In this document: positions 20,717 to 26,942 of the stretch, piece after piece
How the letters are laid out: each line of letters begins with the position of its first letter
Numbering within the stretch: position 1 is the stretch's first letter
NCBI GenBank assembly: GCA_022340265.1
Contig: JAJDOH010000033.1
Span: 1-64,000, forward strand
Direction: 5' to 3'
DNA length: 64,000 nucleotides
From: Deltaproteobacteria bacterium
GTDB taxonomy: Bacteria; Desulfobacterota; DSM-4660; Desulfatiglandales; Desulfatiglandaceae
The notes under the pieces: model-generated
Databases searched by the model: none
Told to the model about the DNA's origin: nothing
Seen by the model: only the letters and a program-made list of their open reading frames with translations
Made by a program: the position numbers and the translations under genes

Positions 20717-22665
20717 TTTCAGGCAACATTCTTTTAAAAAGGGCTGTTTCTGTTTTGTTGGCGGGGATGGCCCTTTTTTTGTTCGCCTGCCAGCCGAAAA
20801 GCACCCGCTCTCCCGCAAAAGCCACGCAAATCCGTTCAGAGGCTTTTGCCGTCGCAGAAAAATACCGGCAAAAAGGTGATTTGGCGCAAGCGCTGACCCA
20901 TTACCAGTCATTTTTAACCCAAGCGGTGAAAGACGATCGAATCCCGCTGGCCCTTCAACGCATCGCCGAGATTGAGCTAAAACTTAATAACCCCGAAAAT
21001 GCACTCGCCTCTCTTGAAAAACTTTCAAAGCGATATCCCGATTATACTTGGATCCCGGAAGTGCGATATCAGATTTCGGTAATCCTCTACCAGTTGGGAA
21101 GATACGAGGCCTCCGCCAACAAAGCCATCGGATGGCTGGATCAGTTTCAAAGGCATTACCTCAAAAAGGACGTTCTGGTCCTTCTGGGGGATGATTTCTG
21201 TGCCATGGGGGAAACGGAATCGGCCTTTTTTTGCTGGATCGAAGCCAAAGATGTCGGAAAAGATGACGAGAAGAAAGAGACAGCGCTGGATGAAAAACTG
21301 GAAACGCTGATCGATACGAGCAGTCCGCTTTTTCTTTCGCGGCTTCTCGAAAATGAACGGGAAGGGTTTTACCCACCCGAAATCTATTATCACATCAGCT
21401 CGGTTTTTCTTTCACAAAAGGAACCGGGACAGGCGGAAATAGCCGTGCGAATCCTTATGGAATCCACCCGTAACCTTCAGTGGATTAAAAAAGGGGAAGA
21501 TATTCTGGCTCGGATCAAAGAAGAAATGGCCATTTGCGAAGACTGCATCGGTTGTCTTCTTCCCTTGAGCGGTTCTTTTGCCGCCTATGGTCAAGAAGTC
21601 CTTAATGGTTTGACCTTGGGAATGCTGAATGACCCCATGAAAGAAACAAAAATGAAGCTCATTGTCAAGGACACGGCGGGAAGCCCTGAAAAAACCCTGA
21701 ATGAACTTGAAACACTGGTGAATAAACAAAAAGTCATCGGTATCATCGGCCCCCTTTCCAGCAAGACAGCCACGTTCATTTCTGAAAGAGCCCAGGATCT
21801 GGGTGTTCCGATGATTGCACTGACCCAGAAAAGAGACATCGTGAAAACCGGCGATATGGTGTTTAGAAATTTTCTCACGCCGGAACAGGAAATCGATTCG
21901 CTGCTTGAGGTGGCCATGGGTCAACTGGGGTTGAAACGTTTCGGCATTTTATACCCGGACAATACCTATGGACGTTTCTGCATGAACCGGTTCTGGGACA
22001 AACTGGACGAGCTGGGGGGCAGCGTTACCGCAGTGGAGTCATATCCAACGGATGTAACCGACTTTGAAGATCAAATCAAGAAGATGGTGGGGCTTTATTA
22101 CCCGAGGGCAGGTGACTGGAGACGCATGTATTCCCAGAAGACAACAGCGGGTAATGACGAAAGTGAAAAACAGCTGGAGGACGGCGATCCCGTCATCGAT
22201 TTTGATGCTGTTTTTATTCCCGATACCTACCAGCGGGTGGCCATGATTGCGCCCCAGCTGGCGTTTTATGATGTGCTGGGTGTTCGGTTAATGGGTACAA
22301 GGCTCTGGGATTCACCCAAATTAATTGAAATGGCGGGAAATTATCTTCAGGGCGCTCTTTTCTCTTCAGGTTTTGTGGCAGAATCCGAAAACCCTGAGGT
22401 AGCGCGTTTTGTGGCGGACTACCGAAATAATTTTAATCAACCCCCGGGCATCCTGGCGGCCAACGGCTATGATACCATTTGTCTGTTGCAAACAATCCTC
22501 AGGGAATACAACCCCAAAACACGTGAGAATCTGCGGCAAGCCTTGCTGGATGCACCGGTTTTTGAAGGTGTGACAGGACCTTTTCGCTTTGATGAAGAAG
22601 GTGAAGCCTTGAAAGTCCCCTTGCTGTTGACTGTTTCGGGAAACAAAACAGTTCCAATTTACTAG
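20713..22665 (+). CDS. LpoA-like lipoprotein: TPR domain plus periplasmic-binding fold
   Basis: A 650 aa lipoprotein. The signal peptide ends with the lipobox LFAC (about residue 22). Residues about 35-260 form TPR-like helices ([20 protein letters not shown]). The rest (about 275-650) is a type I periplasmic binding fold of the branched-chain-amino-acid-receptor class, with [20 protein letters not shown] and [20 protein letters not shown]. This TPR-PBP architecture is that of LpoA, which activates a bifunctional penicillin-binding protein from the outer membrane. That role is inferred. It starts at GTG overlapping the dnaK stop, and shares the CTAG at 22662-22665 with tatC as both stop codons. 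Confidence 0.82.
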
Positions 22666-23435
22666 CCCGTCGTTTCAGAGGTCTCCTCTTCGTCCTCTTC
22701 CGCTTCCTTTTTTTCTTTCGATTTTTGGGCAATCCGGGCCACCAGGATGCCGATTTCATAGAGAATGATAAGAGGCCCTGCCATCATGCACTGGGTTATC
22801 ACGTCCGGGGGGGTAAGAATTGCGGCGACAACGAACGTCAGGAGGATTGCGTATTTACGCTTCTTCTTGAGCAACTCGGCCGTCACGACGCCCATCTTGG
22901 CCAAGAAAAAAATAATGACCGGAAGCTCAAAAACCACCCCGAAGGCGAAAAGCAGTTTGATGGCAAAGGAAAAATACTGTTTGACCGACGGAAGTGCTTT
23001 TACATACTCGTTTGAGAACCCGACGAAAAACTTGAAACCGAAGGGAAAGACCACGAAATAACCAAAAAGGGACCCTCCTACAAATAGAATAGTGGAAGCC
23101 ACCACGAAAGGGATCACATATTTTTTTTCCTTCTGGTATAGGCCGGGGGCGATAAACATCCATAGCTGGTAGAAAATGTAGGGTGCTACCAGCAATATTC
23201 CCGCCAGAAAAGAAACCTTCAGGTAGGTGAAAAACATCTCGGGGAGATTGGTGAAAATAAGATGATCGCCTTCAGGCATCACCGCTTTAAGTGGTGCGAC
23301 CAGGAGAGCGAACAACCTTTCCGCAAAGGCGTATGAGGCTGCGAAACCAACCCCGACCGCGATGGCGGAGAAGATAAGCCGTTTCCGTAGTTCCTCCAGG
23401 TGACTCAAAAACGGCTGTTTGTCTTCGCTATCCAT
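22662..23435 (-). CDS. tatC: Sec-independent translocase TatC
   Basis: TatC, 257 aa, six membrane segments, the twin-arginine signal receptor in the inner membrane. The N-terminus QPFLSHLEELRKRLIFSAIA matches the highly conserved opening. The first periplasmic loop has PEMFFTYLKVSFLAGILLVAP, then QLWMFIAPGLYQKEKKYVIP and AILTPPDVITQCMMAGPLI. The C-terminal tail is strongly acidic (EEDEEETSE). The ATG at 23435 was chosen because a longer upstream frame is only basic low-complexity sequence overlapping tatB. It overlaps tatB by eight bases and ends convergently with the LpoA-like gene. Confidence 0.96.
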   Translation of the reverse strand: MDSEDKQPFLSHLEELRKRLIFSAIAVGVGFAASYAFAERLFALLVAPLKAVMPEGDHLIFTNLPEMFFTYLKVSFLAGILLVAPYIFYQLWMFIAPGLYQKEKKYVIPFVVASTILFVGGSLFGYFVVFPFGFKFFVGFSNEYVKALPSVKQYFSFAIKLLFAFGVVFELPVIIFFLAKMGVVTAELLKKKRKYAILLTFVVAAILTPPDVITQCMMAGPLIILYEIGILVARIAQKSKEKKEAEEDEEETSETTG

Positions 23436-23853
23436 TATGGTCTTTCTCCACAGTAGCCGGGGCCGCGGTTTCTTTTTCAACATCGTGGGAAGCAGTGGTG
23501 ATGACGGTGTCTTTGGAAGGTTTCTCCTTTTCCTGATGGTACGCATCCAGCATTTGGTCGTAATCCTCAAATTTCGGCGGTTCTTCCTTTTCTTCCACAT
23601 CCTCAACCGCCGCTTCCTTTTTCTTTGAATCCGGCGGCTTATCCAAACCGCTGACGGCATCCACCACGTCTTCACGGGCTTCTTTGAAATCCTCGTCCAG
23701 ATTTAAACCGTCCTTGATCTCAGTAGTTGCCCTTTTGAATTCAGAAAGGCCTTTTCCCAGGGCTTTTGCAAGATCGGGAAGTTTCTTGGGTCCGATGACG
23801 ATCAGAGCGATCACCAAAATGATAATTAATTCGGGCATGCCGATACCAAACAT
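23428..23853 (-). CDS. tatB: Twin-arginine translocase TatA/TatB subunit, TatB-like
   Basis: A 141 aa single-membrane-span protein. MFGIGMPELIIILVIALIVI, GPKKLPD and an amphipathic helix LAKALGKGLSEFKRATTEI give the classic TatA/B layout. Length and the Pro and Glu-rich tail (about 60-141) point to TatB rather than the shorter TatA. GGAGG six bases before the ATG fixes the start. TatB holds signal peptides with TatC. No second TatA is in this window, so one protein may serve both roles or tatA lies elsewhere. Confidence 0.9.
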   Translation of the reverse strand: MFGIGMPELIIILVIALIVIGPKKLPDLAKALGKGLSEFKRATTEIKDGLNLDEDFKEAREDVVDAVSGLDKPPDSKKKEAAVEDVEEKEEPPKFEDYDQMLDAYHQEKEKPSKDTVITTASHDVEKETAAPATVEKDHNG

Positions 23854-23929: not shown

Positions 23930-24412
23930 TTATAATTGAAGCATCAAGGCTGTTTCATCGCAATCCGGAAATTTTGGGCATTTCAAACAGTCCGCCCATA
24001 TTTTGTGGGGAAGCTGGGATTTATCAACTTCATAAAATCCTCTTTTAATGAAAAAATCAGGAACATAGGTTAATGTAAACACCTTGTCGAGTCCGAGGGC
24101 GGCCGCTTCCCGCAGGCATGCATCCATAAGCTTTCTGCCAAATCCCTTCCCCTGGAATGCTTCAGCAACGGCCAGCGATTCGATTTCCGCAAGATCCTTC
24201 CAGCATATGCCCAAACCGCAGACCCCCTGGATGCGATCTCCCGAAGCCGGTTCCAGTACAAAATAGGCGCGCAGATGCTCATAAAGCTCGCTTAAAGACC
24301 TGGCCAGGAGCCGTCCTTTTGCGGCATAGGCGTTCAAGAGTTCGTGAATCGCCTGCACATCATCGATAACCGCCTTTCTCACAAGCGGATATTCATCTTT
24401 TTCATATACCAC
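23930..24412 (-). CDS. GNAT acetyltransferase, short ArgA-like
   Basis: A 160 aa GNAT-fold enzyme. It has an acceptor region VRKAVIDDVQAIHELLNAYA, the acetyl-CoA loop VAEAFQGKGFGRKLM (Q/RxxGxG/A), and a C-terminal CLKCPKFPDCDETALML with three cysteines. That cysteine pattern occurs in short ArgA-type N-acetylglutamate synthases of deltaproteobacteria as I recall them. If correct it makes N-acetylglutamate, the first step of arginine synthesis. Neighbouring argS is only circumstantial support. The GTG at 24412 has AAGGA upstream; a frame from 24484 would overlap the upstream gene. Another N-acetyltransferase substrate remains possible. Confidence 0.75.
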   Translation of the reverse strand: MVYEKDEYPLVRKAVIDDVQAIHELLNAYAAKGRLLARSLSELYEHLRAYFVLEPASGDRIQGVCGLGICWKDLAEIESLAVAEAFQGKGFGRKLMDACLREAAALGLDKVFTLTYVPDFFIKRGFYEVDKSQLPHKIWADCLKCPKFPDCDETALMLQL

Positions 24413-24455
24413 AGTCTGTTCCTTTTTGTCAGCATTTGGTCTGTCGCCAAAAAAA

Positions 24456-25112
24456 TCATTTTTGACGGCCGACCTTTTGGACAAACCCTTTCAGTTTTTC
24501 CTCTTTAGCCAGATTTTGTTGCGTTCTAACGGCTTCCGTTTTGGTCCCATATGTACCGCACCGTACCCGGAAATAACTTCGGCCATTGATGATAACTTTG
24601 TAATGGTACGCCGGGTATCCTTTTTTTACCAAGCGGTTAACCATATTGGAAGCCTGCTTTTCCGCGTCCAGTGATGCCACCTGAACCACATAGAATTCTT
24701 CGGCAGGTGCAGGCGCAGCGGGCTTTTTTACATCGTTGGCGTCGGGGTTTTCTTGTTTGAGGTTCTTCTTGACGGGTGGTTCTTTCCGTGAAGGCACCTC
24801 TGGGATTTTTTGCTTGGAGAGTTCATCATAAAATGCAAAATTCGGACTTTCCGGGAGGGCCTTGATCTCATCCAATTCGGCAGTGTCCCGATGCCCCAAC
24901 ATTTCCTGAAGCTTTACAATCTGGTTCTTGAGCTCGGCCAGGGTTTTCGCACCGCTCGGTAAAAGCCCTCTGCCGGCGAGAACACCCAGTGTAAAAATCC
25001 AACCCAGAAAGATTAAAAAGCCCAGGCTCCAAAAAAAAAGTGCCGTACGGGAAAGCTCCAGGCGAAGACCCTTTTTCTCTTTTTCAGGTTTTTCTTTCTC
25101 TTCCTCTGTCAT
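24456..25112 (-). CDS. SPOR-domain membrane protein
   Basis: A 218 aa bitopic protein: short Lys/Glu-rich cytoplasmic N-terminus, one membrane helix (about 23-50, ALFFWSLGFLIFLGWIFTLG), a Pro/Lys-rich periplasmic linker, and a C-terminal SPOR domain (about 137-215: FYVVQVASLDAEKQASNMVN, YFRVRCGTYGTKTEA). SPOR domains bind denuded peptidoglycan at the division site. Start at ATG 25112, shortly after the argS stop. It belongs to the argS-led minus-strand unit. Confidence 0.88.
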   Translation of the reverse strand: MTEEEKEKPEKEKKGLRLELSRTALFFWSLGFLIFLGWIFTLGVLAGRGLLPSGAKTLAELKNQIVKLQEMLGHRDTAELDEIKALPESPNFAFYDELSKQKIPEVPSRKEPPVKKNLKQENPDANDVKKPAAPAPAEEFYVVQVASLDAEKQASNMVNRLVKKGYPAYHYKVIINGRSYFRVRCGTYGTKTEAVRTQQNLAKEEKLKGFVQKVGRQK

Positions 25113-25122
25113 ACCTTGGTCG

Positions 25123-26799
25123 TCACATTTTTTCAGGCGCACTCACACCCAGCAGACGCAGTCCGTTGGCGATGACGATTTTGACGCCCGAAACCAGGAT
25201 CAGTCTGGCTTGCGTCAAGGTTTGGTCTTCGGTGACGACCCTGAGTTCACTGTTCTTAAGGCCCATGTTGAAGTACCGGTGAAAGGATGCCGCCAGATGG
25301 GTCAGATAATAGGTTAACCGATGGGCTTCCAGCGTCTTGCAGATATCTTCCAGAAGTGCCGGAAATTCCGACATGGTTCGGATGATGGCCATTTCTTCCT
25401 TCAGTGCAAGTTTTTCCCATATGCCGTCAGCCCGGTCCAAAACGGCAATTCCTTCAGACTCAGCCTTACGGATGATGCTGCAGATTCGGGCGTGGGCGTA
25501 TTGAACATAATAGACCGGGTTGTCACTGTCCTGTTTCTTGACAAGATCCATGTCCACATCGAGCGGTGAGTCATGGCTCTTGGTGAGAAACACAAAACGA
25601 GCTGCGTCAACACCCACCTCATCCAGCAGTTCCTGAAGGGTGACAAAACTTCCGGCCCGCTTGCTCATTCGGAGTTCCTGTCCATTCTCCCACAATTTTA
25701 CCAGCTGTATCAGCAGAACCGAAAGCCAATTTTCGGGAATGCCGTGACTCATCAGAGCGGCTTTTACACGCGGTACATATCCATGATGATCGGCGCCCCA
25801 GATGTTGATGGCTTTGGTAAAACCCCTGCGGTGTTTCTCCAAGTGATAGGAGATATCCGATGCAAAATAGGTATACTGACCATCGCTTTTTCGAATCACG
25901 CGGTCTTTGTCATCCCCGAATTGAGAGGTTTTGATCCAGACGGCCCCTTCCTGCTCATACAGATGCCCTCTGGCCTGTATGGAATCCAATGTTTGGTCGA
26001 GCAATCCGGACGCGTGAAGGTCGTCTTCGGAAGACCAGACATCAAAATTTACCCTGAAACGATCCAGGGCTCGCTGAATTTCCTTGAGCATCATTTCTTT
26101 GCCGTTTTGCGCACAAAGAGCGACGGCTTTATCCGGTTCTTCCGAACTCAAATCAATTTTTTCAGAGATAGTATCCGCCAAATCCAGAATGTATTCTCCG
26201 TGATAACCGTTTTCGGGAAACTTGAAGTCCGGGTCCTCCTTCTGTTTCAAGCGGGCCCAAATGGATTCCCCCAGCATCCTGATCTGCAGTCCGGCGTCAT
26301 TTACATAAAATTCTCGAACCACCTGGTGACCGCAAAAGGAGAAAATCCGGCAGAGTGTATCACCAAGAGCGGCACCCCTGCCGTGACCGAGATGAAGGGG
26401 ACCCGTGGGATTGGCGCTGACAAACTCCAGCAAAACTTTCTCATCACGCCCCATTTCGCTACGGCCATAATCATTTTGAAACCGAAGGATCTGATCCAGA
26501 ATTTGACACCACTCTTCTGCGTGAATGGTAAAATTGATAAATCCGGGACCGGCTATCCGGGTATTTTCAAAGAAATCCTTCTCATCCTTCAGATGTTCTA
26601 CAATGACGGATGCAATTTCCCGGGGATTTCGTTTTTGGCCGGCTGCCAGGGTCATGGGCAGATTGGTGGCAAAATGGCCATGTTCGGGATTCTTCGGCAC
26701 TTCGATAACGTATTCGGGTACGGTCGTTTTTTTGAGTTAGCCAAGCTAGAAACAGCGGGAAAGGGCATTTTTCAGTATGCCATCGATTCTCTTTTTCAT
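25123..26799 (-). CDS. argS: Arginyl-tRNA synthetase, with two in-frame stop codons near the start
   Basis: Class I synthetase charging tRNA-Arg. From ATG 26799, with GAAGGA nine bases upstream, the frame is 558 codons before its stop, the usual ArgS length. Motifs: NPTGPLHLGHGRGAALGDT (HIGH-type HLGH), ELRMSKRAGSFVTLQELL (KMSKS-type) and the C-terminal anticodon-binding helical domain. The frame from 26799 is broken at codon 18 (TAG, 26746-26748) and codon 21 (TAA, 26737-26739). Sequence on both sides is still ArgS-like (MKKRIDGILKNALSRCF ... VPEYVIEVPKNPEHGHF) and in the same frame. Each stop is one transition from a Gln codon. The only later in-frame candidate start is a GTG at 26700 without a ribosome binding site. 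It leads the operon argS-SPOR-GNAT-tatB-tatC. Confidence 0.85.
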
Positions 26800-26942
26800 A
26801 TGCGTGATTCCTTCCGGCAACTCCAAATGTTCGGCCGGTTTTTTCTAATGGATGATCCTCGTGAAAAGGGTTTGTCGCTGCAACATAACTAACTGATCCC
26901 TTTTTTTATATCAAGCAATATGTGAACCCTCTTTCACGGAAG

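Follow-up and report, generated by a model that had tools for sequence, protein, structure and literature searches.

Can an essential arginyl-tRNA synthetase gene (argS) that carries two stop codons close to its start still give rise to its enzyme, or are the stops a fault of the sequence or of a single allele? The question is raised by a 64,000-nucleotide stretch of DNA (the window) that belongs to a deltaproteobacterial draft genome of 4.95 Mb in 330 contigs (completeness 97.08, contamination 5.84). A sequence-only reading of the window had placed a TAG and a TAA within one argS frame, and both the coordinates and the frame proved right when the minus strand was read.

The argS frame and its two stops

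25123..26799, minus strand: argS, encoding arginyl-tRNA synthetase; 558 codons counted from the ancestral ATG, with two in-frame stops (Pfam and congeners)
26799-26797, minus strand: start ATG of argS (frame read on the minus strand)
26809..26815, minus strand: Shine-Dalgarno sequence of argS, GGAAGGA (sequence and anti-SD pairing)
26746..26748, minus strand: in-frame TAG, argS codon 18 (Glu codons in three congeners)
26737..26739, minus strand: in-frame TAA, argS codon 21 (the three congeners have a Glu, a Lys and a Val codon)

The start assigned earlier at ATG 26799 holds: GGAAGGA stands upstream, its anti-SD pairing has a duplex energy of about -5.7 kcal/mol, and the start position is common to all relatives read. 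The residues read ahead of this ATG, PEGIT, are common to the window and two congeners. Past the TAA the frame is open down to the stop at 25123 and, with X set at the stops, Pfam recognizes Arg_tRNA_synt_N, tRNA-synt_1d and DALR_1 in one chain, as in a functional bacterial ArgS; such a gene also has a frame that runs without interruption from a start preceded by a ribosome binding site, and this argS lacks it. The interrupted gene is, as had been claimed, an ordinary ArgS. It shares with bacterial class I ArgS (PF03485 / PF00750 / PF05746) the three domains, the full length and the relatives' start, with 81-82% identity to full-length ArgS of congeners, but differs from it in the two in-frame stops, which interrupt the N-terminal domain at helix 1 and the loop after it. 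Translation of the sequence as written from ATG 26799 would end at the TAG with a 17-residue peptide, or at the TAA with one of 20 residues should the TAG be decoded as pyrrolysine, and would yield no full-length ArgS.

Relatives, copy number and state of the gene

In a search of whole genomes, ArgS was present in 57 of 61, the window's own genome counted, and in three of the four other species of the genus (81-85% identity to the window ArgS). The stop site was compared in 28 relatives, i.e., these three congeners and 25 others. All 28 align with the same start position, without stop and without gap, so that the comparison with close relatives called for by the sequence-only reading gives sense codons at both stop sites throughout. 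Where the window has SRCF(stop)LG(stop)L, the congener sequences are SRCFEQGEL, SRCFEQGKL and SRCFEQGVL, and the conserved G20 (between the stops) and L22 (after them) are both in frame. Because the relatives align without gaps and in the same frame on both sides, a net frameshift or a wrong start is excluded at the DNA level, as had been argued. The Gln ancestry proposed for the stops, through C-to-T changes, is contradicted: according to the congeners, the residue replaced at codon 18 is Glu and that at codon 21 is Glu, Lys or Val. By the same alignment, the stops are confined to one genome among those compared. Paired indels or sequencing frameshifts were also considered, the +1 frame being open through the site, but were rejected, the relatives being in register base by base.

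Two further genomes gave unusual results in the search. One of the same genus (G003, listed as 95% complete, 810 contigs) has no argS match. In a same-order relative (G048:C220:1388-3026), argS falls into two matches that overlap, the first of which contains one TGA and two TAA; a frameshift is probable.

On the window's branch, argS has undergone 168 private changes, distributed 44/17/107 by codon position, as is usual for a gene under normal purifying selection. Codons 2-17 hold two branch changes only, one of them altering the residue, and no further lesion was found across the 558 codons apart from the two stops. Because this selection pattern is normal and the gene is otherwise free of lesions, argS appears to have been working until very recently. 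A lineage-private stop pair in an otherwise intact gene of one genome is likewise met in nonsense alleles, pseudogenes and consensus errors of drafts; what differs here is that argS is an essential gene present once, for which a fixed null would be unexpected.

The neighbourhood includes the following features:

24456..25142, minus strand: SPOR-domain protein, next gene downstream of argS (Pfam SPOR)
23930..24484, minus strand: GNAT acetyltransferase (Pfam Acetyltransf_1)
22662..23675, minus strand: open reading frame holding tatC (Pfam TatC at residues 91-301)

A block of about 40 kb is syntenic with one congener and partly with two more. When the table of this block was sorted by eye, argS was the only conserved gene recognized with internal stops, the remaining rows resembling overlapping open reading frames or differences in start or end. 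At the stop site, four transversions fall within 10 nt. Such a cluster was considered as a sign of artefact, and purine-to-T transversions do cluster in argS (scan p ~0.002, chosen post hoc), but this weight was dropped, similar or denser clusters being present in neighbouring sequence: the 19 kb compared contain 16 partly overlapping start positions with four or five transversions per 10 nt. Since the cluster is no denser than those of its 19 kb neighbours, the sequence bears no mark of artefact besides the stops. A copied or templated stretch was rejected as well, CTAGCTTGGCTAAC being found once in the genome with at most one mismatch allowed.

The search returned one argS in the genome, from an assembly that is 97.08% complete; the second argS elsewhere that had been offered as an explanation, and that would mark a pseudogene beside a functional copy, was not found there. 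It is improbable that a second, acquired argS is absent from the assembly while the window copy is starting to decay. The assembly is indeed incomplete and tRNA-Trp is absent among the tRNA matches listed, but the argS found is single, both stops lie within four codons and no further lesion is seen in the 558, unlike random decay, and selection on the branch looks normal.

Candidate decoders of the stops

At least 41 tRNA matches were obtained in the window's own genome, all reading sense codons except one tRNA-Sec with a TCA anticodon (G000:C243:16713-16805). Two pattern searches of the genome gave no tRNA with a CTA or TTA anticodon, and no ochre-reading tRNA stands among the tRNA matches listed. 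Also absent among these matches (150 of 193 candidates scored) are tRNA-Trp, tRNA-Ile and tRNA-Ala(TGC), which points to assembly gaps or to the limit of the search. A search for PylS led to an 8 kb contig of the genome that bears a complete pyrrolysine cassette, composed of PylB, tRNA-Pyl (CUA), PylSc, PylC, PylD and PylSn (G000:C19 1699-6274). The five proteins are all above NCBIfam cut-offs, and the contig matches the genome in GC and tetranucleotides. tRNA-Pyl surfaced through this search only, having been missed by the general tRNA and pattern searches, and no PylS above cut-off was found in any of the four congeneric species. Together, the cassette and the tRNA-Sec would make this a dual code-expansion genome. 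The suppressor-tRNA search suggested by the sequence-only reading thus bore out for one stop and not for the other: tRNA-Pyl (CUA) could in principle read the TAG of argS, but it is no help with the TAA, for which no tRNA was found.

With its whole cassette and tRNA-Sec, the genome resembles the pyrrolysine amber decoding (pylTScSnBCD) described in marine Deltaproteobacteria (PMC8318568). Unlike the genes concerned there, argS does not encode a methylamine methyltransferase, and its second stop is TAA. Of what marks a pyrrolysine-encoded gene, pylT, pylS and pylBCD are present in the genome, but a sole UAG, at a position where homologues keep UAG or Lys, is not what argS has, since a TAA accompanies the UAG and the congeners carry Glu, with neither Lys nor TAG, at codon 18. 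Even with a complete cassette on a contig whose composition fits the genome, it is highly improbable that the TAG is decoded as pyrrolysine and the TAA by other suppression or leaky reading: UAA is unreadable by tRNA-Pyl, no TTA-anticodon tRNA was found, TAG serves as an ordinary terminator (it ends 14 of the 45 window genes), codon 18 is Glu, and not Lys, in the congeners, the three MTTB homologues of the genome have no in-frame TAG, and an MtmB homologue was not found in it. General read-through or a change of code was rejected, because the 117 ABC-ATPase domains of the genome are free of in-frame stops and TAG is in use as terminator. Since no TAA-reading tRNA was found and TAG is an ordinary terminator, read-through fails to explain the stop pair.

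Truncation, frameshifting and the likeliest origin of the stops

Two further features past the stops bear on how an ArgS might still be made:

26698..26700, minus strand: GTG in frame at codon 34, the first common start codon after both stops (no Shine-Dalgarno)
26727..26733, minus strand: A7 run just past the TAA (+1 frame TCA AAA AAA, in the phase of a -1 slippery heptamer)

The GTG at 26700 had been put forward as a start that would give an N-truncated ArgS; a Shine-Dalgarno is absent (anti-SD duplex energy about 0 kcal/mol, vs -5.7 at the ATG) and none of the relatives examined starts there. Nevertheless, a 525-residue ArgS made from this GTG, perhaps by reinitiation after a 17-codon upstream frame, with stops that are real and fixed, constitutes the main biological rival, conceivable but unlikely. 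From the GTG to the gene end the frame is open, and with the stops only 37-46 nt upstream of it, reinitiation could be imagined. The product would have lost helix 1 of its N-terminal domain, while the tRNA D-loop pocket would stay. Indeed, the GHFATN motif (residues 41-46) lies downstream of the GTG and is retained; by its position, it may be equivalent to the D-loop-binding GDYQ motif of other ArgRS, described together with the A20 pocket (PMC8975779, the one directly useful paper found on ArgRS N-terminal deletion and draft-genome stop codons), and A20 is present in all four tRNA-Arg found. The cost to the protein would be considerable, since positions 1-28 of the 85-position Arg_tRNA_synt_N profile would be dropped, as would the helix 2-19 and the following loop predicted by AlphaFold2 when the frame was modelled straight through the stops, each replaced by Glu purely for this purpose (mean pLDDT 91.4). 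Besides, every relative read has the full N-terminus, of equal length, and with a single amino-acid change in codons 2-17 on the branch, this part was translated until recently.

A compensating recoding, with a +1 shift at TTC TAG followed by a -1 shift on the A7 run, would restore ArgS to full length, with a short linker changed. Between the stops the +1 frame is open, A_AAA_AAA is in the right phase and the product length would be exactly normal. Yet neither shift has a visible stimulator, the enzyme yield from two successive inefficient events would be very low, and an open stretch of such length is expected by chance, so that this reading has hardly any probability and the A7 run is unlikely to be of consequence. 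Judging from the relatives' register, the gene did not evolve via the +1 frame and a return on the A7 run. More broadly, it is very improbable that the sole argS of a pyrrolysine-encoding bacterium is truly expressed across its amber and ochre codons, or N-terminally cut via reinitiation; expression past both stops would here mean the amber read as pyrrolysine with the ochre bypassed, or paired frameshifts skipping both.

The stops are probably an error in a draft sequence of metagenome type or a very recent, unfixed defective allele present in the cells sampled, and not a working device. This is the likeliest origin because argS is a single essential copy, otherwise intact and constrained, in a fragmented draft assembly, because no relative read has a stop there and argS is the only conserved gene recognized as interrupted in the block of about 40 kb, and because no mechanism found reads both stops. 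A sequence or assembly error had been among the options offered by the sequence-only reading and is the most likely of them. Against an error, several wrong bases within 10 nt between correct flanks are rarely the outcome of assembly, and the cluster is no denser than those of intact neighbouring genes, so that only the stops suggest one. With an error or unfixed allele, living cells would carry sense codons at codons 18 and 21.

This case shows that a broken essential gene can appear in a draft genome, and that comparison with congeners separates the frame, the ancestral codons and the candidate decoders. Real and fixed stops would force an essential synthetase with a single gene to be made by stop bypass or from a start that lacks a ribosome binding site, and such stop bypass or reinitiation would tie the ArgS level to termination efficiency.
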